DNA of 64,000 bases from Parabacteroides johnsonii DSM 18315 (GTDB taxonomy: Bacteria > Bacteroidota > Bacteroidia > Bacteroidales > Tannerellaceae), in the NCBI RefSeq assembly GCF_025151045.1, contig NZ_CP102285.1:496001-560000 (forward strand), written 5' to 3'. The notes below the pieces were generated by a model that saw only the letters and a list, made by a program, of their open reading frames with translations, searched no databases and was not told the origin of the DNA. Below, piece by piece: positions 1,199-47,260 of the stretch. Each line of letters opens with the position of its first letter. The first letter of the stretch is position 1. Both the position numbers and the translations under genes were made by a program.

Positions 1199-1223
1199 CG
1201 AACACACTGTCCGATATTGAACA
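1199..1223 (+). promoter_or_regulatory. Upstream activator site 1 of the sigma54 efflux regulon
   Basis: Three half-sites: CGAACA (1199-1204), 3 bp, TGTCCG (1208-1213), 4 bp, TGAACA (1218-1223). The last two form the dyad TGTYCR-N4-YGRACA; the 16-bp dyad is the exact reverse complement of the one at 7741-7756. It lies exactly 45 bp upstream of the GG of the sigma54 promoter. Likely bound by the NtrC-type regulator encoded at 11589-12962 (inference). Confidence 0.75.
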
Positions 1224-1268
1224 CTTATTTTGAAAGATAACTTCATGTAATCAATGATTTATGTTTTT

Positions 1269-1282
1269 GGCATGAAGTTTGC
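1269..1282 (+). promoter_or_regulatory. Sigma54 (-24/-12) promoter of the efflux operon
   Basis: TTGGCATGAAGTTTGCC at 1267-1283 has the invariant GG (1269-1270), 10 bp, GC (1281-1282) of RpoN promoters and matches the TGGCAY-N5-TTGC consensus. It lies 59 bp before the chosen start of the membrane-fusion gene, which rules out translation starts upstream of about 1295. Confidence 0.85.
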
Positions 1283-1341
1283 CTTGTGAAAGCCGTCAAG
1301 GTGGAAATGCTGGAAAAAGAAGAATTAAAATAATAGTAAAT

Positions 1342-2589
1342 ATGGACAGAGAGATTTCAAAAGAAGTACAGAGAAAAGAGCAGCGCAAACAGTTGATCAA
1401 GATAGGGGTGGTTGCCGGTGGTCTTATCGTCCTGATCGTAGTGGTGATCTCCATGCTTCAGACCAGTCTGAAACGGAAAGACCTCAACATTTCGACGGTC
1501 GACAGGGGAGTGATCGAAGTTTCGGTCAGTGCATCCGGCAAAGTGATCCCCGCATTTGAGGAGATTATCAACTCACCGATCAACTCCCGTATCGTGGAGG
1601 TATATAAGCGGGGCGGGGATTCAGTCGATATCGGTACGCCTATTCTGAAATTAGATTTGCAGAGCGCCGAGACGGAATATAACAAGCAGTTGGACGAAGA
1701 ACAGATGAAGAGCTTGCAACTGGAACAGCAACGTGTGACGAACCACAACAAACTTTCGGAGATGGAAATGAACCTGAAAGTCTCCCGTATGGAACTGGAT
1801 CGCAAAGCTGTCGAACTCCGTAACGAACGCTATTTAGACAGCCTGGGAGCCGGTACAACCGATAAAGTCCGCCAGGTGGAACTTGATTATAATGTGAGTG
1901 TCCTCAAACTGAAGGAAGATGAGCAAAAATATAAGAACGAACAAGCCTTGGCTGAAGCGGACCTGAAGGTAAAAAAGCTGGAACTGAATATCTTCCGCAA
2001 AAGCCTTGCCGAGACCCGGCGCACGTTGGAAGATGCTCAGATCCGTTCACCTCGCAGAGCGATCCTGACCTATGTGAATAACGAGATCGGCTCGCAGATA
2101 GGCCAGGGGGCTAAGGTGGCAATCGTTTCCGACTTGTCTCATTTCAAGATCGAAGGCGAGATCGCTGACACCTATGGCGACCGTATTGCCGCAGGCAGTA
2201 AGGCTGTTATTAAGATCGGCAGTGAGAAACTGGACGGAACGGTCAGTGATGTTACTCCTTTATCAAAGAACGGCGTGATCTCTTTCACTGTCCAATTGGA
2301 GGAAGACAATCATAAACGTCTCCGTTCCGGTTTGAAGACCGATATCTATGTGATGAATGCCGTGAAGGATGATGTGCTTCGCATTGCCAACTCCTCTTAT
2401 TATGTAGGAAAAGGAGAATACGAACTCTTTGTCGTAAACGGAGACCAGTTGTTGAAACGCAAAGTACAGTTGGGAGACAGTAATTTCGAATATGTAGAAG
2501 TGGTTAGTGGCCTGCAGGAAGGTGATCAGGTCGTTGTCTCGGACATGAACGCTTATAAGGACAAGAACAAATTGAAAATAGAGGACTGA
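1342..2589 (+). CDS. Periplasmic membrane-fusion protein of ABC efflux system (HlyD/MacA family)
   Basis: 415 residues. A short N-terminal cytoplasmic stretch, one membrane anchor (about residues 20-38, VVAGGLIVLIVVVISML), a split lipoyl/barrel-sandwich domain (INSPINSRIVEVYKRGGDSV and RSPRRAILTYV), a long charged coiled-coil hairpin about residues 110-230 that would reach a TolC channel, then beta-barrel and membrane-proximal domains. The open frame extends upstream to 1279, but that would overlap the -12 promoter element, so ATG 1342 is chosen. It is first in an operon with four permeases and should bridge them to the TolC-like protein at 10050. Confidence 0.88.
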   Translation: MDREISKEVQRKEQRKQLIKIGVVAGGLIVLIVVVISMLQTSLKRKDLNISTVDRGVIEVSVSASGKVIPAFEEIINSPINSRIVEVYKRGGDSVDIGTPILKLDLQSAETEYNKQLDEEQMKSLQLEQQRVTNHNKLSEMEMNLKVSRMELDRKAVELRNERYLDSLGAGTTDKVRQVELDYNVSVLKLKEDEQKYKNEQALAEADLKVKKLELNIFRKSLAETRRTLEDAQIRSPRRAILTYVNNEIGSQIGQGAKVAIVSDLSHFKIEGEIADTYGDRIAAGSKAVIKIGSEKLDGTVSDVTPLSKNGVISFTVQLEEDNHKRLRSGLKTDIYVMNAVKDDVLRIANSSYYVGKGEYELFVVNGDQLLKRKVQLGDSNFEYVEVVSGLQEGDQVVVSDMNAYKDKNKLKIED

Positions 2590-2607: not shown

Positions 2608-3879
2608 ATGGTAAAACAATATTTGAAGCAAGCGTTATACATGCTGAAAGAGAACCGGTTCGTCAGCGTGATTTCCATAGCGGGTACAGCCATTTCCATC
2701 GCTATGATCATGGTAGTGGTCCTGGTGTTCCAGGTACAGTTTGCCAGCTTTTATCCGGAGAACAATCGTGACCGGATGATGTATGTGGACGGTGGGACGG
2801 AAGTCCGGTCCGACAATGGTTGGAACCGGGGGAATATGTCGGCCGAGGCGGTGAAGGAATGTTTCTATACGTTGCAGATACCGGAAGCCGTCTCTGGTTA
2901 TGCGTTGCAGTTGAAGCCGTTGTCCATTCCGGGCAAGCGGATGTACAAGGGGTATGAGATCAAATATACCGATCCTGGCTTCTGGCAGGTCTTCTCTTTC
3001 CGCTTCGTGTCGGGGAAACCGTTCACGCAGGCGGACTTCGATTCGGCCATTCCTGTCGCGGTCGTCTCGGAAAGCGTGGCACGCAAGCTCTATGGCTCGA
3101 CGGAGGTGGTAGGGAAGAGCGTAATCATCGACATGGCTGCCTATACGATTTGCGGGGTGGTGGAAGATGCCAGCCGGGCTGCTGATACGGCTTTCGCGTC
3201 TGTTTGGGTGCCTTATACGACCGATCGGGTTCTTTTGGCCAATACGATAAAAGAGAATATGGCTGGTTCTTTCTCGGTTTGCCTCTTGGCAAGGAAGAAG
3301 GGAGACTTTAGGGCCATCCGGCAGGAGTTGGACCGGCAGGTTGAACGTTATAACGGGATGAAGCAGGATAACAAGATCAACTTCATGGGGAATCCCATCT
3401 CCCGGTTGGATGTGGCGATCGGTTCCCAGGGACAAGCGCATGTGGCGTTGAAGGATTACTTGTTGGAGACCGGGGCGTTGTTGCTCTTCCTGTTGTTTGT
3501 CCCAGCTCTTAATCTTTTGGGCGTGACGCAGTCTGCCGTACAGAAACGGCGGGCAGAGATGGGGGTGCGCAAGGCGTTCGGGGCGACGACCGGAACCCTG
3601 TTGTGCCAGGTGTTGTATGAAAACGGCCTGACGACGTTGATCGGTGGAGTCGTTGGATGCGGGCTATCCCTGTTGTTCTTCTCGTTAGGCAAGGATTTCT
3701 TGCTGGAGAGCACGAACACGGCTTTGAGTGGAGAGATGTTGTTCCAGCCGATGGCATTCGGAGCGGCTTTGCTGTTTTGCTTGTTGCTGAACTTGTTGTC
3801 TGCCGGTATTCCGGCTTTGCGGATTGCCCGGCAGAAGATCGTGGTTGCATTGAAAGATGGGGAAGAGTTTACTAAATAA
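2608..3879 (+). CDS. ABC transporter permease A1 (MacB/FtsX family)
   Basis: 423 residues with MacB layout: an N-terminal transmembrane helix (SVISIAGTAISIAMIMVVVLVF), a large periplasmic domain including a VSESVARKLYGS segment typical of the MacB periplasmic core, and three C-terminal helices with the FtsX signature KRRAEMGVRKAFGAT. No ATPase domain is fused; the ATPase is probably the one at 7890. It starts 18 bp after the fusion-protein gene. Its closest relative in the window is permease A2 (5179-6441), but its codons are visibly richer in G and C at third positions. Confidence 0.88.
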   Translation: MVKQYLKQALYMLKENRFVSVISIAGTAISIAMIMVVVLVFQVQFASFYPENNRDRMMYVDGGTEVRSDNGWNRGNMSAEAVKECFYTLQIPEAVSGYALQLKPLSIPGKRMYKGYEIKYTDPGFWQVFSFRFVSGKPFTQADFDSAIPVAVVSESVARKLYGSTEVVGKSVIIDMAAYTICGVVEDASRAADTAFASVWVPYTTDRVLLANTIKENMAGSFSVCLLARKKGDFRAIRQELDRQVERYNGMKQDNKINFMGNPISRLDVAIGSQGQAHVALKDYLLETGALLLFLLFVPALNLLGVTQSAVQKRRAEMGVRKAFGATTGTLLCQVLYENGLTTLIGGVVGCGLSLLFFSLGKDFLLESTNTALSGEMLFQPMAFGAALLFCLLLNLLSAGIPALRIARQKIVVALKDGEEFTK

Positions 3880-3894
3880 AGGAGGAAAAGAGAT

Positions 3895-5163
3895 ATGGTC
3901 AAGCATATATGGAAAATGATTTGGAACCAGCGGGGCAGCAATGGCTGGATATTCCTGGAACTGCTGCTGGTGTTCGGGGGGCTTTGGGCGATGATGGACT
4001 CGATGTTGGTTAGTTGGTATATCTATCGGCAACCGTTGGGCTTCGATATCACGAATGTGTATAAGATAAACATAGGAAAGAAATCGGCCGGCATACCGGG
4101 TTACCAACCGGATTCGCTGCTGGCGACATCGGAAGGGGAAGACTTGATCCGTTTGGTGGAGAACATCCGCCGGGCGGAGGAGGTGGACGAGATTTGCGTG
4201 GCGAGTACTTCTTGCCCTTACACCTGGAGCAACATGTGGTCGCAACGGGTGCGGGCGGATGCCGATACGAGCGTGAAAGCCAACTATTACCAATGCTTCG
4301 AGGTGACACTTCCCTATTTCGATGTGTTGCGGATCAAAGACCGGGAAGGGCATCAGTTGCGCCCGGTGGTGGAGAAGAACGTGGGCACTCTGGCTGTTTC
4401 TTCTGATTTTGAAAAGGAGTTGTTTGAAGGGGAATCTTGTGTCGGTAAGCAGCTCAAATGGTTTGCCAAAAGCACGGAGACGGAAACGATTGCCGCAGTT
4501 ACTTCCCCTATCCGCCAGAACGAGTTCAAGGTGAGTACCCCTTGCTTTTACCAGTTGATGCGCACGGATGAAGAGGTGGCCGAGTGGGTCTCTCGGAGGA
4601 AAGCAGAAAACATGGATTGCCTCGTCCGCATGAAGAATGGTTTCAAGGCGGATGAGATGGATGCCTTCTTAGGCAAGATGGGCGAGCGACTGGAAGTGAA
4701 CAACCTGTATGTCTCTTGCGTGATCCCGTTGGAAGAGCAGCGTCCTGTGATCCTGAAAGGGCGGTTGGACAATTTGAAGAAGAAAACGGCTTTGGTCGGC
4801 TTCATGCTGGTGAACGTCTTCTTTGGCATCGTCGGCACCTTCTGGCTGCGGACGCAATACCGCCGGGGCGAACTAGGGTTACGGTCGGCATTGGGGGCTT
4901 CGCAGGGTATCTTAAAGCGCTATCTTGATGTGGAGGGGCTTTCGCTGTTGGCCTTTACGGTACCGTTGGTGCTGGTCTTCATTGTCAATATACTCTATTT
5001 CGATTTGCCCGATACGGGACGGATGGCCTATTCGGGGTGGCGCTTCCTTGTCACCTTCGGTGGTGCGTTCCTGTTGCTGGCCGGTATGATCTGGGTCGGT
5101 ATCTGGTTCCCGGCACGCAGGATTGCGAAGATGAATCCGGCAGAGGCTTTACATTATGAATAA
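3895..5163 (+). CDS. ABC transporter permease B1 (FtsX-like)
   Basis: 422 residues. It shares with B2 (6452-7723) the N-terminal pattern NQRxSNGWIFxELL, a periplasmic domain of about 250 residues, and a C-terminal bundle containing NVFFGIVGTFWLRTQYRRGELGLR-type sequence, the FtsX coupling motif. It ends in MNPAEALHYE, a common MacB-permease C-terminus. It lies 15 bp after A1, so A1 and B1 may form a heterodimeric permease. Like A1, it uses more GC-rich third positions than A2/B2. Confidence 0.87.
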   Translation: MVKHIWKMIWNQRGSNGWIFLELLLVFGGLWAMMDSMLVSWYIYRQPLGFDITNVYKINIGKKSAGIPGYQPDSLLATSEGEDLIRLVENIRRAEEVDEICVASTSCPYTWSNMWSQRVRADADTSVKANYYQCFEVTLPYFDVLRIKDREGHQLRPVVEKNVGTLAVSSDFEKELFEGESCVGKQLKWFAKSTETETIAAVTSPIRQNEFKVSTPCFYQLMRTDEEVAEWVSRRKAENMDCLVRMKNGFKADEMDAFLGKMGERLEVNNLYVSCVIPLEEQRPVILKGRLDNLKKKTALVGFMLVNVFFGIVGTFWLRTQYRRGELGLRSALGASQGILKRYLDVEGLSLLAFTVPLVLVFIVNILYFDLPDTGRMAYSGWRFLVTFGGAFLLLAGMIWVGIWFPARRIAKMNPAEALHYE

Positions 5164-5178
5164 TAAATAACGAGGAAT

Positions 5179-6441
5179 ATGTTCAAACAGTATTTTAAAC
5201 AAGCCATCCAGATGTTGAAGGAGAATCGCCTCACCAGTGTGATCTCGATCCTTGGAACGGCGCTTTCAATCGCGATGATATTGGTGGTGATCCTCCAGTT
5301 CCAAATCAAGCTGGTCGGTTTTCGTCCGGAGTCGAACCGTGGTAGAATGCTTTATATCATGGGAATACGAGCGGATTCACGGAATAGTGGAGACCGGAAT
5401 TCGACCGCTATGTCCGATGGTGTCGTGAAGGAATGTCTTTATCCGCTTCAAACACCCGAAGCGGTGACGGCGATAGCGAGCAACAGAGCGATTGTCTCGT
5501 TGCCGAACCGTCAGTTGTTTGAGGAATATGTGATAAAGTATACCGATCCCGGTTTCTGGAAGGTCTTTGATTTTCGCTTCATTTCCGGCAAACCGTTTAC
5601 GGAGGCGGATTTCAGTTCAGGCCTGCCTTGTGCGGTCATTACAAATACGTTGGCTCGTAAGCTTTTCGGATCGGAAGACCCGATCGGGAAAGAGGTGTTG
5701 ATGGGATATGTGCCGTATACCATAACGGGAGTGGTGGAAGCTCCGACGCGAGCAGCTAATAGTGCTTACGCAGATGTTTGGGCTCCTTATACCAGCAATA
5801 CGAATTATGTGAACAGTATGTCGTGCGGAGGTGTCTGCGGTAGTTTCCAAGGGGTTATCCTGGCTCGTTCGGCGAGCGATTTTGATGCGATCCGTACGGA
5901 AATCAAGCAAGCGGTCAGCCGTTATAATGCTACCGGTCGTGAGTTTGTCTTAGGGATGAACTTCGTGTTCTCTCGATTGGACGTGGCATTGGGATCGAAC
6001 GATGTGAACGGAGGTATATTGAAGGGATGGAAAGAATATTTGACGCAAACGGCTCCTTTGTTGTTGTTCCTGCTGTTGGTACCAACCTTGAATCTGACAG
6101 GTGTCGTCCAGTCATCCGTCCAGAAACGCCGTTCCGAGATGGGGCTTCGTAAAGCGTTTGGAGCGACGAAAGGACGTCTGCTGACACAGGTCTTATGCGA
6201 GAATCTGATCATCACCTTGATCGGGGGCTTGATCGGGATCGTCCTGTCTGTAATTTTGCTTCAACTTTGCAAGTCGTTTCTTTTGACAAAGGAAACGGCG
6301 GTTACCTTCGAGATGCTTTTCAAGCCTATCCTGTTCGTTGCTGCCCTCTTTTTCACCCTGCTGTTGAACTTGCTGAGTGCCGGCCTTCCGGCAATCCGGA
6401 TCTCCCGTGAACAGATTGTGGATGCGTTAAACAATAAATAA
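5179..6441 (+). CDS. ABC transporter permease A2 (MacB/FtsX family)
   Basis: 420 residues, clearly a paralogue of A1: same N-terminus (FKQYFKQAIQMLKENRLTSV), same periplasmic signatures (IKYTDPGFWKVFDFRFISGK) and the same KRRSEMGLRKAFGAT coupling segment. Transmembrane helices lie near the N-terminus and in three C-terminal stretches. It starts 15 bp after B1. Divergence from A1 is substantial, so the duplication is old or one pair was acquired separately. Confidence 0.87.
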   Translation: MFKQYFKQAIQMLKENRLTSVISILGTALSIAMILVVILQFQIKLVGFRPESNRGRMLYIMGIRADSRNSGDRNSTAMSDGVVKECLYPLQTPEAVTAIASNRAIVSLPNRQLFEEYVIKYTDPGFWKVFDFRFISGKPFTEADFSSGLPCAVITNTLARKLFGSEDPIGKEVLMGYVPYTITGVVEAPTRAANSAYADVWAPYTSNTNYVNSMSCGGVCGSFQGVILARSASDFDAIRTEIKQAVSRYNATGREFVLGMNFVFSRLDVALGSNDVNGGILKGWKEYLTQTAPLLLFLLLVPTLNLTGVVQSSVQKRRSEMGLRKAFGATKGRLLTQVLCENLIITLIGGLIGIVLSVILLQLCKSFLLTKETAVTFEMLFKPILFVAALFFTLLLNLLSAGLPAIRISREQIVDALNNK

Positions 6442-6451
6442 ACCCAATATA

Positions 6452-7723
6452 ATGATCAAACATATTTTAAAGATAATGTGGAACCAGCGTCGTAGCAACG
6501 GCTGGATATTTGCGGAGTTGTTGGTAGTGGCAGCAGTGCTCTGGATGATGGTAGATACGTTCTGGGTGGATTACCGGACCTATCATGCTCCTTTAGGCTT
6601 CGATATCGGAAATGTATGGCGTTTTAAGTTAAGTAATTTGGATGTGAAGGCACCAGGTTACGTGCCCGATTCTCTTTACCATTCGTCCGACCCGGAAGAT
6701 CTGACGCAGTTGATGACTCAGATCCGTCAGAACCCGGAGGTGGAGGACGTTTGCGTCACTTTCTATTCCTGTCCCTATTCGAGTGGTAATTCATGGCGGG
6801 AAGTCAAGCCTGTGGATGGCGACACTATCTATGCGGCTCATATGGAGTCATTCCAGATGCGCAACGTCACACCGGAATATTTCCGTCTTTTCCGTATCCG
6901 GACAGTTGATGGGGAACCGGTGTATGATAAGGTCGTAGGGCGGCATAACGTGATTGTGATCACACCGGAAATGGCGGAAGGTTTCTATCATGGTGCTCCG
7001 GATATTGTCGGCCGTCGTGTGTATCATGGCGGTCATGATCTGTCGTCTGAGATCGCAGCGGTTTCCACTTCCATCCGAACGAATGAGTATGAGCGTTCCG
7101 AAGCCTCTTATTTCCAGTGTTTGGAAGGTGAAACTTACAATTCAACCATCAGCAGCTTCGGTGCCAGTAGTGCCGAGTTTTGTGTCCGGATGAAACGTTC
7201 TTATACGCAGAACGAGATGAACCTGTTCTTGGATGGAATGGGAGAGAGGTTGAGGGTCAACAATCTCTATGTCTACGGCATTACCCCGATCTCTTCTTTC
7301 CGTGAACAGCAACTGAGTTGGAAAGAACGGGAGGCGAATAACAAGATGTCCTTGATGGCCTTTATGCTGGTAAATGTCTTTTTTGGTATCATCGGCACTT
7401 TCTGGCTTCGTATGCAGAACCGAAAAGGCGAGATCGGTCTCCGGATGGCTTTGGGGGCTCACCGTATCACGCTGGAACGCTATATGTATACCGAGGGACT
7501 TTGTTTACTTGTCTTGACATTGCCCTTGCTAGTCATCTTCGCCTTTAATATGGCTTATATGGACCAGCTCGATTCTTACCGCCAACCACTTACATTTATG
7601 CGTTTCCTCATGACTTTCAGTTTCACCTATCTTCTGATGGGTGCCATGATCTGTATAGGTGTCTGGTTTCCGGTACGTAAGGCGATACGGTTGGCGCCGG
7701 CGGAGGCATTGCATTATGAATGA
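6452..7723 (+). CDS. ABC transporter permease B2 (FtsX-like)
   Basis: 423 residues, paralogue of B1: NQRRSNGWIFAELL near the N-terminus, the LGFDIGNVWRFKL segment, periplasmic domain, and the NVFFGIIGTFWLRMQNRKGE coupling region followed by helices and a terminal LAPAEALHYE. It is last gene of the first unit; operator 2 of the regulon begins 8 bp after its stop, so the downstream ATPase has its own sigma54 promoter as well as possible read-through. Confidence 0.87.
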   Translation: MIKHILKIMWNQRRSNGWIFAELLVVAAVLWMMVDTFWVDYRTYHAPLGFDIGNVWRFKLSNLDVKAPGYVPDSLYHSSDPEDLTQLMTQIRQNPEVEDVCVTFYSCPYSSGNSWREVKPVDGDTIYAAHMESFQMRNVTPEYFRLFRIRTVDGEPVYDKVVGRHNVIVITPEMAEGFYHGAPDIVGRRVYHGGHDLSSEIAAVSTSIRTNEYERSEASYFQCLEGETYNSTISSFGASSAEFCVRMKRSYTQNEMNLFLDGMGERLRVNNLYVYGITPISSFREQQLSWKEREANNKMSLMAFMLVNVFFGIIGTFWLRMQNRKGEIGLRMALGAHRITLERYMYTEGLCLLVLTLPLLVIFAFNMAYMDQLDSYRQPLTFMRFLMTFSFTYLLMGAMICIGVWFPVRKAIRLAPAEALHYE

Positions 7724-7731
7724 TGACAAAA

Positions 7732-7756
7732 CGGACAATGTGTTCAATATCGGACA
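7732..7756 (+). promoter_or_regulatory. Upstream activator site 2 of the sigma54 efflux regulon
   Basis: CGGACA (7732-7737), 3 bp, TGTTCA (7741-7746), 4 bp, CGGACA (7751-7756). Same tripartite layout as sites 1 and 3, again ending exactly 45 bp before the GG of a sigma54 promoter. It falls between the last permease stop and the ATPase gene. Confidence 0.75.
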
Positions 7757-7801
7757 TCTTTTGTTTTGTATAATAATTGATTAATAGCTATTTACTTCTT
7801 T

Positions 7802-7815
7802 GGTATGCAATTTGC
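7802..7815 (+). promoter_or_regulatory. Sigma54 (-24/-12) promoter of the ABC ATPase gene
   Basis: TTGGTATGCAATTTGCC at 7800-7816 carries GG (7802-7803), 10 bp, GC (7814-7815). It gives a leader of about 60 bases before ATG 7890. The frame of the ATPase is open back through this promoter, but translation from there would begin inside the promoter and is unlikely. Confidence 0.83.
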
Positions 7816-7889
7816 CAGTTGGAAGTATATACGAAGAATATAATAACAACGGGCAGCCTCAACCCTGTCCACAACAAACAATAACGATT

Positions 7890-8555
7890 ATGATAACACT
7901 TACAAATCTTGAGAAGATCTACCGGACGAAAGAAATTGAAACGGTAGCCCTGGAGAACGTGAACCTGACGGTCGATAGAGGAGAATTCCTGAGTATCATG
8001 GGGCCTTCCGGTTGCGGTAAATCTACACTGCTGAACATCATCGGGCTACTGGATGCCCCGACCTACGGTACAGTCGAGATTGCCGGAGTCAACACAATCA
8101 ATATGAACGACAAGCAACTAGCCGAGTTCCGTAACCAAAAGCTAGGCTTCGTTTTCCAGTCTTTCCACCTGATTAATTCGCTAAACGTGCTTGATAATGT
8201 CGAACTGCCCCTTCTCTACCGCAAGGTCAGTGCCAAGGAGCGCCGTGCCGCAGCTGAAGCCGTACTCGAAAAGGTCGGCCTTTCTCACCGTATGCGCCAC
8301 TTCCCGACGCAGCTCTCTGGCGGCCAGTGCCAGCGTGTCGCCATCGCACGTGCCATTGTCGGCAACCCTGACATCATCCTCGCCGATGAGCCGACCGGTA
8401 ACCTGGACTCCAAGATGGGAGCTGAAGTCATGGAATTACTCCACAAGCTGAACAAGGAAGACGGTCGTACCATTGTCATGGTTACCCACAACGAGGAGCA
8501 GGCAAAACAGACAAGTCGTACGGTACGTTTCTTCGATGGGCGGCAGGTAATGTAA
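7890..8555 (+). CDS. ABC transporter ATP-binding protein (MacB/LolD type)
   Basis: 221 residues, a complete single nucleotide-binding domain: Walker A GPSGCGKST, Q-loop FVFQSFHLI, signature LSGGQCQRVAIARA (canonical LSGGQ), Walker B IILADEPTGNLD and the H-loop MVTHNEE. This subfamily energises MacB, LolCDE and FtsX-type permeases by mechanotransmission. No other ATPase lies in the locus, so it probably serves both permease pairs. ATG 7890 is chosen because the upstream part of the open frame overlaps the sigma54 promoter. Confidence 0.93.
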   Translation: MITLTNLEKIYRTKEIETVALENVNLTVDRGEFLSIMGPSGCGKSTLLNIIGLLDAPTYGTVEIAGVNTINMNDKQLAEFRNQKLGFVFQSFHLINSLNVLDNVELPLLYRKVSAKERRAAAEAVLEKVGLSHRMRHFPTQLSGGQCQRVAIARAIVGNPDIILADEPTGNLDSKMGAEVMELLHKLNKEDGRTIVMVTHNEEQAKQTSRTVRFFDGRQVM

Positions 8556-8627: not shown

Positions 8628-9185
8628 CTAAAATGTCATGGATGCATATATGCCGAAGTGTTTATCGCTCGCAACAGGGCTGATAGACAGGTTATGCTTC
8701 GTAGCAAACGGACGGGTAAAAATGTAGGCGCTTCCAGCTCCGAGAGCAGCTCCCGCCACTACGTCCCACCAGTCGTGCTTCTTGGCATATGTCCGGCTCC
8801 ATCCTACATATGAGGCAATCGCATAAGCCGGAATTCCCCATTTCCAGCCATAGCGCCGTTGGATGAACGCAGCTCCCGTAAATGAAACCGAGGTATGCAT
8901 AGAAGGAAACGAATGTTTGTCGCTACCGTCCGGCCGCTCTTTCTTAATCAGATATTTCAAAGCGTATGTCATACCTATAGTCGAAACTCCTGCCAAAGCG
9001 CCTTGCTTCAATCCTTGCCAATCCTGCAATACCAACACGGTAGTCAGGCTCGCTACAGGCGTTATGAACGCCAACACATCACCCGATGTACGGACAGCCT
9101 TGCGACTTCCGCTTATCTCAACTTCTTGCGCTTTTCCCGATAAACAAACGAATAATACGAAAATCAGGGTAAGAATTCGTTTCAT
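8628..9185 (-). CDS. PAP2-family membrane-associated phosphatase
   Basis: 185 residues with an N-terminal signal sequence (LIFVLFVCLSGKAQ). The three PAP2 phosphatase motifs are present: KYLIKKERPDG, PSMHT (PSGH position) and SRTYAKKHDWWDVVAG, with the catalytic His and Asp. Such enzymes remove phosphate from lipid phosphates (phosphatidate, undecaprenyl diphosphate, lipid A) on the periplasmic side. The exact substrate cannot be read. It sits 22 bp downstream of a 69-residue gene, antisense to the efflux locus, with a DgkA-type kinase further upstream. Confidence 0.85.
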   Translation of the reverse strand: MKRILTLIFVLFVCLSGKAQEVEISGSRKAVRTSGDVLAFITPVASLTTVLVLQDWQGLKQGALAGVSTIGMTYALKYLIKKERPDGSDKHSFPSMHTSVSFTGAAFIQRRYGWKWGIPAYAIASYVGWSRTYAKKHDWWDVVAGAALGAGSAYIFTRPFATKHNLSISPVASDKHFGIYASMTF

Positions 9186-9207
9186 TTATAGATATGTCTT
9201 GTTTACG

Positions 9208-9417
9208 TTATTTACTTTTTTCAAGAATAAGGCGGCTGATGCGTGCCTGTACCTGCATTAGTGTTACAACGTCAATATTTTCAAAGTCAATATCGATGAG
9301 TTTGATTTTGTCTTTTTTAGCCATTCTGTGTGGAGAATGTCCCATTTCCTTTACTAAATCGTCAATCATTTCTTTAATTTTCTCCGCTCTTTTCGAATAA
9401 TTTACTGTGCGTGCCAT
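9208..9417 (-). CDS. Small conserved-looking hypothetical protein
   Basis: 69 residues, highly charged (MARTVNYSKRAEKIKEMIDD...), predicted largely helical, no signal peptide or membrane span. A -7 element (TATATTTG) lies 34 bp before the start and a purine-rich AGGAG is 5 bp before the ATG. It is probably co-transcribed with the PAP2 gene. I do not recognise the family; the basic N-terminus followed by an amphipathic helix could suit a nucleic-acid-binding or regulatory role, but nothing proves this. Confidence 0.65.
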   Translation of the reverse strand: MARTVNYSKRAEKIKEMIDDLVKEMGHSPHRMAKKDKIKLIDIDFENIDVVTLMQVQARISRLILEKSK

Positions 9418-9451
9418 AATCTCCTGTTTTAATTTTTAATTAATAATGGCA

Positions 9452-9459
9452 CAAATATA
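9452..9459 (-). promoter_or_regulatory. Bacteroidota -7 element of the small gene/PAP2 unit
   Basis: On the minus strand the sequence reads TATATTTG, a perfect match to TAnnTTTG. No clear TTTG -33 box is found at 19-20 bp. Confidence 0.6.
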
Positions 9460-9513
9460 AACAAAGAGAATTGTAAAACAATGAAATAAAGGATTATTCT
9501 TTTAAATAGTCAT

Positions 9514-9885
9514 TCAGAATCCCAGTTTAGGAAAAAAAATAATCGATCCGACTATGGCAGCCGCTATTGCCATAATTAAAACGGCTCCTGCTGCGAGGTC
9601 TTTCGTTTTTTTTATTGCTTCGTTGTATTCGGGTGAGACCAAATCTGCCAATGATTCAATGGATGAATTGATTGCTTCGGCCGATAATACGGCTCCGATT
9701 ACGATCACGACCGCCATCCATTCTGTTTGGGATAAACCGAAAGAAAAGCCGGCTATAATCACGCAAATAGTAGCAAAACAATGTATCCATGCATTGTGCT
9801 CTTTTTGTATCAATAAACGGATGCCATTAAAAGCATACCGGAAACTGGCCAGTCGTTTACGAAAAGTGAAGCCGCTGTTTTTCAT
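9514..9885 (-). CDS. dgkA: Diacylglycerol/undecaprenol kinase (DgkA family)
   Basis: 123 residues, the usual length of prokaryotic DgkA, with three membrane helices. Family signatures are clear: EAINSSIESLADLVSP (consensus ExxNTAIExxxD) and KTKDLAAGAVL. It phosphorylates diacylglycerol or undecaprenol at the inner membrane. The frame is open upstream to 9954, but that would run into operator 3, and MKNSGFTFRKRLASF at ATG 9885 is the normal family start. It is divergent from the TolC-like gene, with the sigma54 operator between them. Confidence 0.88.
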   Translation of the reverse strand: MKNSGFTFRKRLASFRYAFNGIRLLIQKEHNAWIHCFATICVIIAGFSFGLSQTEWMAVVIVIGAVLSAEAINSSIESLADLVSPEYNEAIKKTKDLAAGAVLIMAIAAAIVGSIIFFPKLGF

Positions 9886-9938
9886 ATTATTTATTGTTTT
9901 GAGAGAACGGGACAAAGATATGAATAATACTTCAAAAA

Positions 9939-9963
9939 CGGACACACTGTTCATTTTCGGACA
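9939..9963 (+). promoter_or_regulatory. Upstream activator site 3 of the sigma54 efflux regulon
   Basis: CGGACA (9939-9944), 3 bp, TGTTCA (9948-9953), 4 bp, CGGACA (9958-9963), the cleanest copy. A weaker extra half-site, TTGGACA, follows at 9972-9978. The third half-site again ends exactly 45 bp before the GG of the promoter. Confidence 0.78.
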
Positions 9964-10008
9964 CTATTGTTTTGGACATGTTACAGACAATCAGTTATAT
10001 ATCTTTTT

Positions 10009-10022
10009 GGCATAACTTTTGC
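10009..10022 (+). promoter_or_regulatory. Sigma54 (-24/-12) promoter of the tolC-regulator-kinase unit
   Basis: TTGGCATAACTTTTGCC at 10007-10023 has GG (10009-10010), 10 bp, GC (10021-10022). The following genes include the presumed activator itself, which implies positive autoregulation. Confidence 0.85.
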
Positions 10023-10049
10023 CAACGGAAAGTCAAAACATTTATTACG

Positions 10050-11531
10050 ATGAAAAAGATCTATATAGCCATCATTTCTATTCTGTTGTCGGGTACCGGA
10101 TTGCAGGCACAGGAACAAGATACTGTCAGGCTGACTCTAAAAGAAGCGATCAACTTGGCGCAAATGCAATCGGTGGATGCAGCAGTGGCCTTGAACGAGC
10201 TGAAGACTGCTTATTGGGAATACCGTACGCATATTGCCGACCAGTTGCCGGAGATCAACTTCAAGGGAACGCTTCCAGCCTACAGTAAACAGTATACTAA
10301 ATACCAGCAGTCCGACGGTTCGTACACTTTTGTCCAAAACAATTCGCTCGGCCTGAACGGAGAGATTTCGATCGATCAGAATATAGCCTTGACAGGTGGT
10401 AAGATATCGTTGAACTCTTCTCTCGATTTTAACCGGCAGTTGGGGAAGGGGGCTTTCAACGAATATATGAGCGTACCTATCGGGTTGACGCTTACGCAGC
10501 CGATTTTCGGTGTGAACGACCAGAAATGGAAAAGGCGCATCGAGCCTGTCCGTTATCAGGAAGCGAAAGCCGCTTATATCGAGAGTGTGGAAGGAGTGAC
10601 GATCAACACGATCGGCTATTTTTTCAACCTGCTGCTGGCAAATGAAAACTTGCAAATTGCCAGGCAGAACCTTGAAAATGCCGATAAGTTGTACGAGATA
10701 GCGGTTGCCAAGCGTAAGATCGGTCATATCTCCGAAAGCGAACTGATGCAGTTGAAGCTGTCTGCCTTGCAGATGAAGGGGAAGCTGACCGAGGCACAAT
10801 CCGGTCTAAATGCCAATATGTTTCAGCTCCGCGCTTTTTTGGGGTTGAGCGAACAGGAAGTGATCGAGCCGATCCTGCCGGAGTCTGCCCCTTCTTTACG
10901 GATGATGTATGAGGTAGTGTTGCAAAAAGCGCAGGAAAACAATTCGTTCGCCAAGAATATTCGCCGTCGCCAGCTGGAAGCTGATTATGAGGTGGCGACA
11001 GCCAAAGGAAATCGTCGCAGTATCAATCTTTTCGCCACGATCGGTTATACAGGAAAAGATCATACGTTCGATTCCGCCTATAACCGATTAAAGGGAAATC
11101 AGGTGGTGGAAGTCGGCATGACGATCCCGATCCTCGATTGGGGCAAGCGCCGGGGAAAAGTGAAAGTTGCCGAATCTAACCGAGATGTGACTTTATCCAA
11201 GATCCGTCAGGAGGAGATCAGTTTTAACCAGGATATTTTTTTGTTGGTGGAAAACTTTAATAACCAGGCCGCTCAGTTGGAGATCGCTCAGGAAGCCGAT
11301 GCGATTGCTGAGAAGCGCTACAAGACCTCTATCGAGACATTCATGATCGGTAAGATCAATATTTTGGACCTGAACGACGCGCAACAATCGAAGGATGAGG
11401 CTAAACAGAAGCATATCCAGGAGTTGTACGACTATTGGAACTACTATTACAATATACGAAGTGTCACCCTTTATGATTTTATCAATGACCGGACTCTTGA
11501 TGTGGAATTTGAGAAGATCGTAAGGCGATGA
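10050..11531 (+). CDS. TolC-family outer-membrane efflux channel
   Basis: 493 residues with signal peptide MKKIYIAIISILLSGTGLQAQ, then two OEP (outer membrane efflux protein) repeats: long amphipathic coiled-coil helices interrupted by beta-strands. The conserved turn VGMTIPILDWGKRRGKV begins the last third. ATG 10050 places a normal signal peptide at the N-terminus; the frame is open further upstream but crosses the promoter. It should complete the tripartite pump with the fusion protein at 1342 and the permeases. Confidence 0.9.
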   Translation: MKKIYIAIISILLSGTGLQAQEQDTVRLTLKEAINLAQMQSVDAAVALNELKTAYWEYRTHIADQLPEINFKGTLPAYSKQYTKYQQSDGSYTFVQNNSLGLNGEISIDQNIALTGGKISLNSSLDFNRQLGKGAFNEYMSVPIGLTLTQPIFGVNDQKWKRRIEPVRYQEAKAAYIESVEGVTINTIGYFFNLLLANENLQIARQNLENADKLYEIAVAKRKIGHISESELMQLKLSALQMKGKLTEAQSGLNANMFQLRAFLGLSEQEVIEPILPESAPSLRMMYEVVLQKAQENNSFAKNIRRRQLEADYEVATAKGNRRSINLFATIGYTGKDHTFDSAYNRLKGNQVVEVGMTIPILDWGKRRGKVKVAESNRDVTLSKIRQEEISFNQDIFLLVENFNNQAAQLEIAQEADAIAEKRYKTSIETFMIGKINILDLNDAQQSKDEAKQKHIQELYDYWNYYYNIRSVTLYDFINDRTLDVEFEKIVRR

Positions 11532-11588: not shown

Positions 11589-12962
11589 ATGATCCTGATA
11601 ATAGACGATGATGCAGCCGTTCGTTCTTCGTTAACTTTCTTGTTGAAACGGGCCGGGTTCGAGCCGGAAGCTGTTCCGGGACCGGAAGAGGCATTGGCTG
11701 TTGTACGCCGGATGGTGCCACAGTTGATCCTGATGGATATGAACTTTACACTGACTACGACCGGTGAAGAGGGGATACAACTGCTGAAGCAGGTGAAGAT
11801 TTTCCAGCCTGACGTCCCGGTTATCCTGATGACGGCATGGGGATCCATTTCGCTTGCCGTGCAGGGGATGCAGGCAGGAGCTTTTGATTTTGTGACCAAG
11901 CCTTGGAACAATCTCGTTCTGCTGAAATCCATCCGTACGGCAATCGAACTGAGCGAACAGAAGAAGGAACTGGAAACACCTTTGAACCGCTTGGATGCCG
12001 ATAATAAATTTCATTTTGATAAGATCATTGGCCAGAGTGCCCCGTTGATGGATGTGTTGGGGACGGTTTCCCGGATTGCTCCGACCAACGCTTCCGTTCT
12101 GATAACCGGCGAGAGCGGAACAGGGAAGGAGCTGATTGCCGAGGCGATCCATACGAACAGCCCTCGTACGAAAGAGCCGTTTGTAAAGGTCAACCTCGGC
12201 GGGCTTTCACAAAGTCTTTTCGAGAGCGAGATGTTCGGGCATAAGAAAGGAGCGTTTACTGACGCTTACATCGACCGTACCGGACGTTTCGAGATGGCAA
12301 ACAAGGGGACGATCTTTCTTGACGAGATCGGTGATCTCGAACTGTCCTGCCAGGTAAAGCTGCTACGTGTCCTGCAAGACCAGACATTCGAGGTTTTGGG
12401 TGATAGCCGTCCTCGCAAAGTCGATATCCGTGTGGTTAGTGCGACAAACCGCAACTTGCGCGAAATGGTGGCTGAACGCATGTTCCGGGAAGATTTGTTT
12501 TATCGTATCAACCTAATAACTGTTCATCTGCCTGCGCTTCGCGATCGTAAAGATGATATCCCTTTGTTGGCACGTTATTTTGCCGATAAACAATCAGAGA
12601 TAAACGGCTTGCCTACTGTCCGTTTTTCATCCGAAGCTTTGACCTTCCTGCAAAAACTGCCTTATCCGGGTAATATCCGTGAGTTGAAGAATTTGGTGGA
12701 GCGGACGATACTGGTATCGGGCAAGGCTGTTTTGGAGGCCTCTGACTTCGAGGGCCAGTGTCTTCATACGACATTGTCGGCAAAGGCTGAAGGGGCTCCT
12801 TCGTTTGAAGGCCTGACATTGGATGAGTTGGAAAAGCAAACGATTCTCCAGGCGCTGAAAACACATGCCGGTAATCTTTCACACGCTGCCATGGCACTCG
12901 GTATCAGTCGGGCGGCCCTGTACCGCCGTCTTGAGAAATATGATATTCCTGTAGACAAATAA
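11589..12962 (+). CDS. NtrC-type sigma54-dependent response regulator
   Basis: 457 residues: receiver domain (acidic DDD at 6-8, phospho-acceptor D50 in LILMDMNF, T82, K104), AAA+ sigma54-interaction domain about 143-375 (Walker A GESGTGKE at 174-181, Walker B TIFLDEIGD), and a C-terminal Fis-type helix-turn-helix (AAMALGISRAALYRRLEKY). The sigma54-contact loop reads GAFTDA at 221-226 instead of GAFTGA. It is 57 bp after the TolC-like gene and 13 bp before the kinase gene. The repeated upstream sites next to three sigma54 promoters are its obvious candidate targets. Confidence 0.93.
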   Translation: MILIIDDDAAVRSSLTFLLKRAGFEPEAVPGPEEALAVVRRMVPQLILMDMNFTLTTTGEEGIQLLKQVKIFQPDVPVILMTAWGSISLAVQGMQAGAFDFVTKPWNNLVLLKSIRTAIELSEQKKELETPLNRLDADNKFHFDKIIGQSAPLMDVLGTVSRIAPTNASVLITGESGTGKELIAEAIHTNSPRTKEPFVKVNLGGLSQSLFESEMFGHKKGAFTDAYIDRTGRFEMANKGTIFLDEIGDLELSCQVKLLRVLQDQTFEVLGDSRPRKVDIRVVSATNRNLREMVAERMFREDLFYRINLITVHLPALRDRKDDIPLLARYFADKQSEINGLPTVRFSSEALTFLQKLPYPGNIRELKNLVERTILVSGKAVLEASDFEGQCLHTTLSAKAEGAPSFEGLTLDELEKQTILQALKTHAGNLSHAAMALGISRAALYRRLEKYDIPVDK

Positions 12963-12975
12963 ATCGCCCCGACTG

Positions 12976-14277
12976 ATGAGAATAAAAGGATTGTTTTGGA
13001 TATTGACTGCATTGCTGTTGTCTGTATTGGCGATTATTACCTATCATGCTTTCTATGCGGAGTCGTCTTTTATGTTCTTTTTCGTGGAAGGGATCGTGAT
13101 CCTGACAATCATCTATTTGTTTGTGTTCTATAGTCGTATCATTAAGCCTCTTACGATTATAGGGAATGGTATGGATTTGTTGAAGGAGCAGGATTTCAGT
13201 TCCCGTCTGAGTCGTGTGGGACAGAAGGAGGCGGATCGTATTGTCGATATTTTCAACAAGATGATGGAACAGTTGAAGAACGAACGCTTGCATCTAAGGG
13301 AACAGAACCATTTCCTGGATTTGCTGATCAATGCCTCGCCGATGGGGGTGATTATGTTGAACCTTGATAAGGAAGTCCTTTCGGTCAATCCGGCGGCTCA
13401 TAAGATGCTGGGAGTTCCTTCCTTGCCGGATATCGTGGGCAAGCGCCTGTCGGAACTGGATTCACCTTTGGCGGCGGAGTTGGAGCCGATCCCCTTATAC
13501 GATTCGCAGACAGTCCGCCTGAACGATGCCAATATATATAAATGTACGCATTCATCGTTTGTGGATCGTGGCTTCCATCATTCTTTCTATTTGGTGGAAA
13601 TGTTGACGCAGGAGGTCTTTAAGGCCGAAAAGAAAGCGTATGAGAAGGTGATCCGTATGATTGCTCATGAGGTGAACAACACGACTGCCGGTATTACTTC
13701 CACATTGGACACGCTTGAGGCGACCTTCAGCGAGATGCAGGACACAGAAGATATTTGTGAAGTCCTGCGTGTTTCGATAGAGCGTTGTTATAGTATGAGT
13801 CATTTTATCACGAAGTTTGCAGACGTGGTTCGCATACCGGAACCTCAAGCCAAGACACAGCCGCTGAATGCAGTTGTCTTTTCGTGCAAACGTTTTATGG
13901 AAACGATTTGCCTGAACCGGAATATCCGGATCGTGATGGATCTGGACCCTGTTTCGCCGATTGTCAATCTGGACAATTCACTCTTTGAACAGGTGTTGGT
14001 CAACATCATCAAGAACGCTTCCGAATCGATCGACCATGATGGTGAGATTTATATCCGTACCTCCCGTAATCCGGTCTGTCTAGAGATTGCCGACACTGGC
14101 AAAGGCATTGACAAGGAAACGGAGGCCAAGCTGTTCAGCCCTTTCTTTTCGACTAAACGTGGTGGCCAGGGCATCGGCTTGATATTTATCCGTGAAGTTC
14201 TCCAAAAACACAACTGTTCCTTTTCCCTCAGGACGTATGCGGATGGATTGACGCGGTTCAGGATTTTATTCGAATAA
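12976..14277 (+). CDS. Sensor histidine kinase, partner of the NtrC-type regulator
   Basis: 433 residues. Two membrane helices (about 5-24 and 32-52) leave almost no periplasmic loop (AFYAESS), so the signal is probably sensed in or near the membrane. Then a HAMP-like linker, a PAS domain about 113-210, a dimerisation/phosphorylation helix with H231 in MIAHEVNNTTAG, and an HATPase domain with N-box NIIKNASES, DTGKGID and GGQGIGL. This NtrB/AtoS-like layout suits a kinase for a sigma54 activator. Confidence 0.92.
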   Translation: MRIKGLFWILTALLLSVLAIITYHAFYAESSFMFFFVEGIVILTIIYLFVFYSRIIKPLTIIGNGMDLLKEQDFSSRLSRVGQKEADRIVDIFNKMMEQLKNERLHLREQNHFLDLLINASPMGVIMLNLDKEVLSVNPAAHKMLGVPSLPDIVGKRLSELDSPLAAELEPIPLYDSQTVRLNDANIYKCTHSSFVDRGFHHSFYLVEMLTQEVFKAEKKAYEKVIRMIAHEVNNTTAGITSTLDTLEATFSEMQDTEDICEVLRVSIERCYSMSHFITKFADVVRIPEPQAKTQPLNAVVFSCKRFMETICLNRNIRIVMDLDPVSPIVNLDNSLFEQVLVNIIKNASESIDHDGEIYIRTSRNPVCLEIADTGKGIDKETEAKLFSPFFSTKRGGQGIGLIFIREVLQKHNCSFSLRTYADGLTRFRILFE

Positions 14278-40364: not shown

Positions 40365-40396
40365 TTCGGTTAATTGGATTAAGATTTGTAATTTTG
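40365..40396 (+). promoter_or_regulatory. Bacteroidota promoter of the second sigma54 activator gene
   Basis: TTCG (40365-40368), 20 bp, TAATTTTG (40389-40396); the -7 box is perfect and the -33 box has one mismatch. 39 bp before ATG 40436. Confidence 0.6.
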
Positions 40397-40435
40397 GCAG
40401 ATAAAACTGAAATAATTACAGATAGTAGAAGAAAT

Positions 40436-41623
40436 ATGATAAAGGTTGATGTGCAGCAGATAAAACAGCGTTTTGGAATTATAGGCAATAATGCCGGGCT
40501 GAACCGGGCTATTGATGTTGCTCTACAGGTCGCTCCAACAGATTTGTCTGTGCTGATTACCGGTGAAAGTGGTGTCGGTAAAGAAACTTTTCCTCAGATT
40601 ATACATCAGAACAGCCCGCGTAAACATGGACAATATATAGCAGTGAACTGTGGTGCCATTCCCGAAGGCACGATCGACTCGGAATTGTTTGGACATGAAA
40701 AAGGCTCTTTTACGGGAGCGTTGTCCGATCGTAAAGGCTATTTCGAGGTGGCGGATGGTGGGACGATCTTCCTGGATGAGGTGGGAGAGTTACCCACTCC
40801 TACACAGGCACGTTTGTTGCGTGTCTTGGAGACGGGAGAGTTTATCCGTGTCGGTTCATCCAAAGTCCAAAAGACAAATGTCCGTATTGTCGCGGCGACG
40901 AATGTCAATCTGACGCAGGCCGTAGCAGAAGGAAAATTCCGTGAAGATTTGTTTTACCGTCTGAGTACGGTGCCTATTCAGGTTCCTCCCCTGCGCGAGC
41001 GTGGTGAGGACATCATCTTGCTTTTCCGGAAATTTGCCAGCGATTGTGCGGAGAAATACCGGATGCCGCCGATCCGTTTGGATGAGGAAGCCCGTCAGTT
41101 GATGCTTTCCTATCGTTGGCCGGGAAATGTCAGGGAACTGAAAAACATAACGGAACGTATTTCTGTTATCGAGGAAAATCGGGATATCACCGCTTCCGTG
41201 CTTCGTCTGTATTTACCTGATCTGAATATCGAGAAATATCCGGTCCTAGTCAAGCAGGATTCCGACCAGAAGATATTCAACAGTGAACGAGAGATTCTGT
41301 ATCAAGTACTGTTCGACATGAAGAAAGATGTCAACGAACTTAAGAAGTTGGTACACGACATTATGGGAGGCAAGATGCCTATCGAGGTGCCGGAAGAACC
41401 GACGGCTTATCCCCATCCGATCCATACCGTCCATCCGGTTCCTTCCATCCAGGAAGCTGAAGCAGTGGAAGAGGAAGAGAGTCTGTCATTGGAAGAAGTC
41501 GAGAAAGAGATGATCCGAAAGGCGTTGGAGAAACATAACGGTCGTCGTAAGAATGCCGCTGCCGATCTGAAGATATCGGAACGGACACTTTACAGAAAAA
41601 TAAAAGAATATAATCTGGAATAA
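40436..41623 (+). CDS. Sigma54-interacting transcriptional activator without a receiver domain
   Basis: 395 residues. The AAA+ domain begins almost at once: Walker A GESGVGKE, sigma54-contact loop GSFTGA, Walker B TIFLDEVGEL, arginine finger region FREDLFYRLSTVPI. The C-terminal third has a linker (ILYQVLFDMKKDVNELKKLVHDIM) and a Fis helix-turn-helix (NAAADLKISERTLYRKIKEY). With no N-terminal sensory domain it resembles PspF in layout. Its stop is 3 bp before an LptE-like gene. ATG 40436 is preferred over the TTG at 40394, which overlaps the -7 box. Confidence 0.9.
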   Translation: MIKVDVQQIKQRFGIIGNNAGLNRAIDVALQVAPTDLSVLITGESGVGKETFPQIIHQNSPRKHGQYIAVNCGAIPEGTIDSELFGHEKGSFTGALSDRKGYFEVADGGTIFLDEVGELPTPTQARLLRVLETGEFIRVGSSKVQKTNVRIVAATNVNLTQAVAEGKFREDLFYRLSTVPIQVPPLRERGEDIILLFRKFASDCAEKYRMPPIRLDEEARQLMLSYRWPGNVRELKNITERISVIEENRDITASVLRLYLPDLNIEKYPVLVKQDSDQKIFNSEREILYQVLFDMKKDVNELKKLVHDIMGGKMPIEVPEEPTAYPHPIHTVHPVPSIQEAEAVEEEESLSLEEVEKEMIRKALEKHNGRRKNAAADLKISERTLYRKIKEYNLE

Positions 41624-46307: not shown

Positions 46308-47260
46308 TTGGCGGATCATTACGGAATGGAAGCCAAACTGTTGGAGTCCCAATATAAGAATCATCTGAGTCATTTCAGGAATTGGGAGCAACGTGCCCAT
46401 GCCGAAGAATGGATTCTCTTCGAGAAAAACATGGGCCCTACGTCGGGATGGACGAAACGGCACTATCGTCGGGAGAACTGTATACAATCCTGATTAACAA
46501 AGAGGCCAAAGGAAGAAAAGGCACAATCATCGCCATGATCAAAGGGACATCCGTAGAAAAGGTATCCCAAGTTATACTCAAACTTTCCCGTCGCAGGCGG
46601 TTTCAAGTTCGGGAAATAACATTGGACATGGCACCCAATATGGCCCGGATAGCCCGTCTCTGTTTCCCGGCTGCCAAGCTGGTTATCGACCGTTTTCATG
46701 TTCAAAAGTTAGCTTTTGAAGCCGTTCAGGAAATGCGGATAAAGGCACGATGGGAAGCTTTGGATAAAGAAATGGTTGAGATCACATACGCTAAAGCATC
46801 AGGACAGCCTTTTGTTACTGAAACATTTGAGAATGGGGACAGTCGAAAACAGCTGTTGGCCAGAAGCCGCTATCTTTTGTTCAAAAAAACTGAACTGTGG
46901 TCGGAGAGCCAAAGAAAAAGAGCTAAAATCCTTTTCCGGGAATATCCCGATATCAAGAAGGCCTATTACTTAAGCATGAGGTTAGGGTTGATATATCATC
47001 AGGCACAATCGGCAGATATTGCCTTGACGCGTTTGGCACATTGGTATGATCAGGTGGACAAATCCGGTTTCCTGTCTTTTGGCACTGTCGCCAGAACCAT
47101 ACAAACACATTACTTGAATATTGTTGGCTTTTTTAAAAGACGCTCCACCAATGCCGCGAGTGAGTCCTTCAATTCTAAAATCAAAGCTTTTAGAGCACAG
47201 CTAAGAGGCGTGAGGGATATTGCTTTTTTCTTATTCAGACTCACCAATATTTATGCATAA
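46308..47260 (+). pseudogene. ISAon1/ISL3-type DDE transposase (orfB), frameshifted
   Basis: The DDE_Tnp_ISL3 domain is recognisable with all three acidic residues: D in YVGMDETALS, D in VIDRFHVQKL and E in NAASESFNSKIK. The first 40 codons (ADHYGMEAKLLESQYKNHLSHF...EEWILFEKNMGP) are in one frame and the rest (YVGMDETALSSGELYT to FRLTNIYA) in another. The break is near 46431-46440, at GGGCCCTAC, consistent with loss of one base. The element is therefore probably inactive unless frameshifting rescues it. Confidence 0.75.

Follow-up and report, generated by a model that had tools for sequence, protein, structure and literature searches.

We analysed a 64,000-nucleotide stretch of the genome of Parabacteroides johnsonii DSM 18315 (contig NZ_CP102285.1, positions 496,001 to 560,000, or G000:C1:496001-560000; hereafter the window), in which four permease genes, A1, B1, A2, and B2, follow an adaptor gene in tandem. 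These genes probably encode two A-B cassettes, exchangeable as units, that belong to a single tripartite exporter of MacB type (type VII), in which each A would form a heterodimer with its own B and both heterodimers would share one ATPase, one periplasmic adaptor, and one TolC channel. The A-B pair is the unit of such arrays in related genomes, and whole A-B cassettes have been swapped between sister species. The pair is also the most variable part of the operon, while motor, adaptor, channel, and regulators form a constant frame. An earlier note on this DNA, made from the sequence alone, had described two paralogous permease pairs served by one ATPase; the swapping of pair cassettes around a fixed motor is a finding beyond it.

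The source genome is a single contig of 4.75 Mb, and its closest named genomes by B2 identity belong to Parabacteroides (P. massiliensis, 89%; P. acidifaciens, 84%). Genes in the locus are ordered adaptor, A1, B1, A2, B2, ATPase, two opposite-strand genes, TolC, NtrC-type regulator, and histidine kinase, with a single adaptor, a single ATPase, and a single TolC. The permease genes are four intact, co-directional open reading frames (ORFs) of 420–423 codons each, spaced by 10–15 nucleotides. The parts of the pump are as follows.

1342..2589, + strand: periplasmic adaptor (membrane fusion protein, HlyD_3), by profile search
2608..3879, + strand: permease A1 (MacB_PCD and FtsX), by profile search, sequence comparison, and structure model
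2800..5090, no strand: A1-B1 block of ~2.3 kb, strongly divergent from sister species G013, the exchanged cassette, by nucleotide identity and synonymous divergence (dS)
3895..5163, + strand: permease B1 (FtsX-like, under the Pfam cut-off), by profile search, sequence comparison, and structure model
5179..6441, + strand: permease A2 (MacB_PCD and FtsX), by profile search and sequence comparison
6452..7723, + strand: permease B2 (FtsX, weak MacB_PCD), by profile search and sequence comparison
7890..8555, + strand: ATP-binding cassette (ABC) ATPase of MacB/LolD/DarD type, sole ATPase of the locus, by profile search
10050..11531, + strand: TolC-type outer membrane channel (OEP), by profile search

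The permease pair as the unit of the array

As the earlier note had read, A1 and A2 are paralogous (223/416 identical positions in global alignment, 53.6%; shuffle z 65), B1 and B2 likewise (181/417, 43.4%; shuffle z 50), and A and B are distinct, with 22.8–26.7% global identity. A and B are remote homologues too, because the shuffle z between them is 6.8–9.6. A1 and A2 share 29 of 40 positions N-terminally, 112 of 244 in the periplasmic part, and 82 of 132 C-terminally. Both A permeases score above the MacB_PCD and FtsX cut-offs of Pfam and B2 above that of FtsX alone, while B1 reaches 23.4 bits against the FtsX model (cut-off 25.5). The domains of a MacB/type VII exporter, a periplasmic core and an FtsX permease domain, are thus present, and the top fold and sequence match of A as well as B is MacB (fold matching on A1 and B1). 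A and B each have their own periplasmic part in the monomer models of A1 and B1. FtsX-type C-terminal ends are kept in both, as is a conserved E-x-G-x-R-x-A-x-G-A stretch, which fits contact with the ATPase by each.

Related loci from the genus, the order, and the phylum were picked through B-like matches and labelled with profiles, and overlaps were removed. In the draw from the order, 33 of 393 genomes had a B-like match at E 1e-25 or better, and in that from the phylum 21 of 296 had one; per-genome copy numbers in these two draws are lower bounds, as 4 or 6 candidates were scored per genome. The A-B arrays are part of a Bacteroidota operon with adaptor, ATPase, TolC, NtrC-type regulator, and kinase. 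Strict (AB)n order holds in 70 of the 76 loci with A or B; four of the other six are contig ends (G017, G008, G060, and G014), and two contain A or B in broken pieces (G004 and G346). The 35 strict loci of the genus carry 1 to 6 pairs, and the 35 from outside it carry 1 to 4. Among loci having both adaptor and ATPase, the ATPase is single in 52 of 53 and the adaptor in all 53, so that the number of pairs varies while the frame stays constant. These counts support the earlier claim that one membrane fusion protein, one ATPase, and one TolC must serve both pairs, although the window by itself is no proof of it, because the genome holds other MacB-type ATPases.

The contrast between pair and frame is also seen in sequence conservation. 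Median identities in the genus are 86% for the ATPase, 78% for the adaptor, and 76% for TolC, as compared to 37% for A and 31% for B (medians for A and B leave out two compact-system pairs, in G018 and G021, and G054). A and B are least conserved in their periplasmic parts (32% and 24% identity), and by median, copies from one genome are no more alike than copies from different genomes.

Other arrangements occur as well. Lone A-B pairs with no system ATPase nearby were seen at L035, L038, and L071, and they are near-identical between G021 and G023. At L039, L040, L053, L068, and L070, genes encoding an HU-type DNA-binding domain together with DUF4469 lie inside or beside the arrays. The genome of the window also has a fused-type array (L074, G000:C1:4345000-4364900), with three tandem fused double permeases, adaptor, TolC, ATPase, and regulator.

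Exchange of whole cassettes

In the comparison with G013, pair 2 and the backbone have dS values of 0.28–0.59, whereas A1 and B1 reach 2.0 and 2.3. Nucleotide identity is ~90% in the flanks, 62–71% in most of ~2800–5090, and 80–83% over the first ~200 bases of A1. Because the high dS is confined to one sharp block against a low-dS backbone, A1-B1 was exchanged as a unit; we read this as exchange with a diverged copy, which can raise dS to such values, as selection on the protein does not.

Other sister genomes behave similarly. For example, G015 and G016 have near-identical adaptors (adaptor dS 0.22, ATPase dS 0.36), and of their five and three pairs compared, one alone matches at an identity of at least 45% (dS 1.4/1.3). 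Between G021 and G023, one pair has a dS of 0.85–0.98 and the other two 0.03–0.26; the number of pairs differs too, with the G023 operon reaching ~220 bases from a contig end, where pairs may be missing. In G027 and G030, by contrast, all three pairs agree. P. massiliensis is without pair 1. In these comparisons related species swapped or lost permease pairs whole while the rest of the pump was kept, which points to a plug-in change of the pump's range. Of the swapped specificity proposed in the earlier note, it is thus the swap of whole A-B cassettes that the sister species show.

On a concatenated A-B tree, pairs 1 and 2 of the window belong to separate clades that are old and sister to each other; each clade has 14 rows, almost all from the slot preceding the ATPase, and the slot is conserved on the tree (5 changes versus 23–24 in shuffles). 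The 14 rows of the pair-1 clade each come from a different genome of the genus; 13 of them precede an ATPase and one is on a contig without an ATPase. Identical histories of all four genes, which would contradict the earlier note, were not found: pairs 1 and 2 differ, and partners within a pair agree. The sister grouping of the pair-1 copies of the window and G013 has a support of 63/50.6 and is neither shown nor rejected, so we leave the lineage of the change and the donor unnamed.

A and B as halves of fused permeases

There are 33 FtsX matches in the window's genome, many of them within fused permeases of ~800 amino acids. A tree of 40 rows (10 A, 10 B, and the N- and C-halves of 10 fused permeases from this genome, with ADOP and DarB sequences not included) separates A and the N-halves from B and the C-halves (support 100/99), and a single branch sets off every one of the four groups from the rest. 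A and B thus share common descent with the two units of this genome's fused permeases; given the long branches, the split is well supported, not beyond doubt. The NCBIfam ADOP model is matched at positions 3–404 by A1, 6–401 by A2, 445–803 by B1, and 437–803 by B2. By half-profile scores, A is closer to the N-half in 10/10 fused permeases, and the joint assignment of A to the N-half and B to the C-half is the best in 10/10.

Partners are also inherited together. Distance matrices of A and B over 72 pairs correlate with r 0.892, while partners shuffled within genomes give a mean of 0.326 (sd 0.050, maximum 0.500 in 2000 shuffles); the 72 were kept by length from 79 A-B pairs, and the dropped set includes one G015 pair cut by overlapping fetches. 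Strict alternation, co-inheritance of partners, and the match of A and B to the two halves of fused permeases favour the pairing of A with B as a heterodimer, and they lend good though indirect support, from the genes, to the heterodimeric MacB-like permeases proposed in the earlier note. Each A, together with its own B, would be the counterpart of one fused permease of YbbP/ADOP/DarB type, half for half, and would take the place of the MacB homodimer. The single ATPase, as a dimer, would power whichever A-B heterodimer is present, both heterodimers would pass cargo to the common adaptor and TolC, and the permease pair probably sets specificity.

The components and arrangement of this system are not entirely those of known exporters. 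MacAB-TolC is a type VII tripartite exporter, and homodimeric, heterodimeric, and fused forms of the fold are listed in reviews (excerpts of PMC5985334 and PMC8277102). The present system resembles it in the MacB permease fold with a periplasmic core in A, the HlyD-type adaptor, and the TolC channel. It differs in that the ATPase (7890–8555) is a separate chain, not fused to a permease, with the PRK10535 model far under its cut-off; in that gene evidence points to two unlike permeases and not one homodimer; and in having several pairs per motor. Like the fused double permeases YbbAP (PMC12646458), ADOP (TIGR03434), and DarB, A and B correspond to N- and C-halves, but ADOP and DarB are one chain of ~780–800 amino acids where two genes are found here, and the window permeases score far under the curated cut-offs of both models (ADOP, 65–119 bits versus 622). 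LolCDE has a heterodimer of two permeases with four transmembrane (TM) helices each and a separate ATPase (excerpts of PMC8277102); here the dimer is predicted from genes, an adaptor and TolC are present, and the permeases are repeated in arrays. The ATPase scores 244.6 bits with the LolD model TIGR02211 (cut-off 307.75), and the models of the darobactin exporter DarBCD also stay under their cut-offs (DarD 260.8 versus 375 bits, DarC 75.9 versus 450 bits). The system is a variant of the MacB-type tripartite exporters, and no description of such arrays was found in the literature searched (listings and abstracts of open-access papers).

Regulon, alternatives, and likely role

The regulatory features of the window, all on the + strand, are listed below.

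1208..1223, + strand: dyad TGTYC-N6-GRACA ahead of the adaptor operon, probable regulator site, by pattern match
1267..1283, + strand: predicted sigma-54 -24/-12 promoter of adaptor and permeases, by pattern match
7741..7756, + strand: dyad ahead of the ATPase gene, by pattern match
7800..7816, + strand: predicted sigma-54 promoter of the ATPase, by pattern match
9948..9963, + strand: dyad ahead of the TolC gene, by pattern match
10007..10023, + strand: predicted sigma-54 promoter of TolC, regulator, and kinase, by pattern match
11589..12962, + strand: NtrC-type response regulator (receiver, sigma-54 AAA+, Fis helix-turn-helix), by profile search
12976..14277, + strand: histidine kinase, apparently with two TM helices separated by a very short loop and followed by PAS and kinase parts, by profile search and reading of the sequence

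A sigma-54-like site stands ahead of all three transcription units, and a perfect dyad starts 59 nucleotides upstream of each such site. This composite pattern gave 65 matches in 38 genomes of the genus versus 1 in the reversed control, with 9 of the 38 genomes having none, and the window's genome contains exactly three, all at this locus. System genes follow the element in 63 of 65 cases: the 51 elements within fetched operon loci all precede them (adaptor 20, TolC 15, ATPase 11, A 5), and 12 of the 14 elsewhere precede a system TolC, adaptor, or ATPase. Elements at L130 and L137 fall inside an over-long called start of TolC; as for the two exceptions, the one at L133 precedes an S41 peptidase gene (6963–8396), and the one at L127 has no clear gene. 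Some later pairs carry their own promoter. The genus scan did not show the strict composite pattern ahead of the lone A-B pairs in G018, G021, and G023. L051, L065, L104, and L105 were skipped in the upstream survey as overlaps or duplicates. The composite element marks the regulon. Neither part served as a marker by itself, the sigma-54 consensus giving 39 matches versus 26 in the reversed control and the dyad 29 places versus 20; the composite alone is specific. Presumably bound at the dyad, the NtrC-type regulator would switch on three sigma-54 units, namely adaptor and permeases, the ATPase, and TolC-regulator-kinase.

The N termini of 35 kinases, read by eye, have two hydrophobic stretches with few residues between, and they presumably resemble those of the intramembrane-sensing kinases of Bce modules. 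As the kinase seemingly has no sensor domain in the periplasm, the probable source of the signal is the membrane or the permeases. Bce-type antimicrobial peptide modules (BceAB-BceRS; PMC10314905) likewise have an FtsX-type transporter beside a two-component system, and the lack of a periplasmic domain in the kinase is a seeming likeness; they differ from our system, which has an NtrC-type sigma-54 regulator, adaptor, TolC, and split permeases, and in which two permeases with their own periplasmic parts stand in place of a single-chain BceB with one large extracellular domain. A 2025 study found sigma-54 enrichment of COG0577 (FtsX-type) permeases in Bacteroidia (PMC12316311), and the excerpts of it make no mention of pairs, arrays, or a dyad.

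Four other genes of the window were labelled from reading of the sequence, with no search. Two opposite-strand genes, PAP2-like and diacylglycerol-kinase-like, occupy 8628–9954 between ATPase and TolC, where near relatives have ORFs of similar size. A second sigma-54 activator-like gene without a receiver domain is at 40394–41623, and a transposase-like ORF at 46382–47260. In addition, a PepSY-like gene (288–1136, other strand) lies upstream of the adaptor, in the same position in P. massiliensis and G013.

Several observations weigh against two heterodimers on a shared motor. One locus, in G201 (L086), has two ATPases with its three pairs, and 12 of the 70 strict loci have no ATPase, some from contig ending. 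The models of A1 and B1 are of middling confidence (predicted local distance difference test, pLDDT, 70 and 77, respectively), and B is closer to the C-half in just 5/10 fused permeases. Best-match partner coherence is 1097/1448 (0.76), short of 1, the nearest foreign A and B are in one pair in 53/72 cases, and tight gene linkage alone would likewise give co-inheritance. We found no substrate gene or phenotype. Ten ORFs near pumps were typed as HU-DNA_bdg/DUF4469 (five), RhuM, PepSY-like, helicase, and two without assignment, with nothing recurrent that names a cargo.

We consider it unlikely that A-A and B-B homodimers, or free mixtures of all four permeases, are driven by the common ATPase, with linkage alone keeping A with B. 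MacB itself is homodimeric (excerpts of PMC5985334), the FtsX-type ends would allow each of A and B to contact the ATPase, and linked genes co-inherit anyway; however, homodimers would permit unequal counts of A and B, which no intact locus has, and the fused relatives combine one A-like and one B-like half per chain. That pairs 1 and 2 belong to one larger multi-subunit machine, as their position in one run with one adaptor could suggest, is highly improbable, given 1 to 6 pairs on a constant frame, the separate promoters of some later pairs, and the lack of pair 1 in a species as near as P. massiliensis. The earlier note saw a hint of later acquisition of pair 1 in its GC-rich third codon positions. 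The codon check confirmed the difference, with a GC content at third positions (GC3) of 0.694 in A1 and 0.686 in B1 as compared to 0.578 in A2 and 0.562 in B2 (z 3.5 and 3.7). GC3 was rejected as proof of acquisition, being too weak: pair-1 counterparts in three relatives range from 0.53 to 0.80, and the codon-usage deviation of A1 and B1 is exceeded by that of the ATPase and of SecA. What stands of the claim is that A1-B1 differs from the sister copy by exchange as a unit, while the pair-1 type is old in the genus. A recent foreign gain would agree with the GC3 values (0.69 versus 0.57) and with the sharply bounded divergence from G013, but the clade spanning 14 genomes, the wide GC3 spread of the counterparts, and a sister grouping neither shown nor rejected make it quite improbable; exchange in an old slot fits pair 1 better than new gain.

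Export of the cell's own diversified product, a peptide or lipid that the cassettes track, is a possibility we take more seriously but do not favour over the removal of foreign compounds. The best curated model of the ATPase is DarD of darobactin export, yet under its cut-off, and the PAP2-like and diacylglycerol-kinase-like genes lie between ATPase and TolC. On the other hand, the long unlabelled ORFs (95 amino acids or more) of the examined loci showed no biosynthetic or precursor gene that recurs, and the regulon element stands almost exclusively ahead of pump genes. The rapid turnover of cassettes points to varied compounds of foreign origin, and a likely role of the exporter is that of an inducible detoxification or antimicrobial-peptide pump. 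More tentatively, it may be a modular multi-specificity exporter, in which a fixed frame of motor, adaptor, channel, and sensor would serve as many as six plug-in permease heterodimers, a bank whose members are acquired, lost, or traded as cassettes. Recombination might take place at the conserved 5' end of A and 3' end of B, and the permeases might report their own cargo to the intramembrane-sensing kinase, which would induce the whole bank by one sigma-54/dyad code.

ABC exporters have mostly been described as one permease set per motor. A fixed motor with pairs swapped between sister species provides natural part-exchange experiments on the choice of cargo in type VII exporters, and through the locus one can ask what compounds the Bacteroidota of the gut encounter, with the regulon element as a clean genome marker for locating such pumps.

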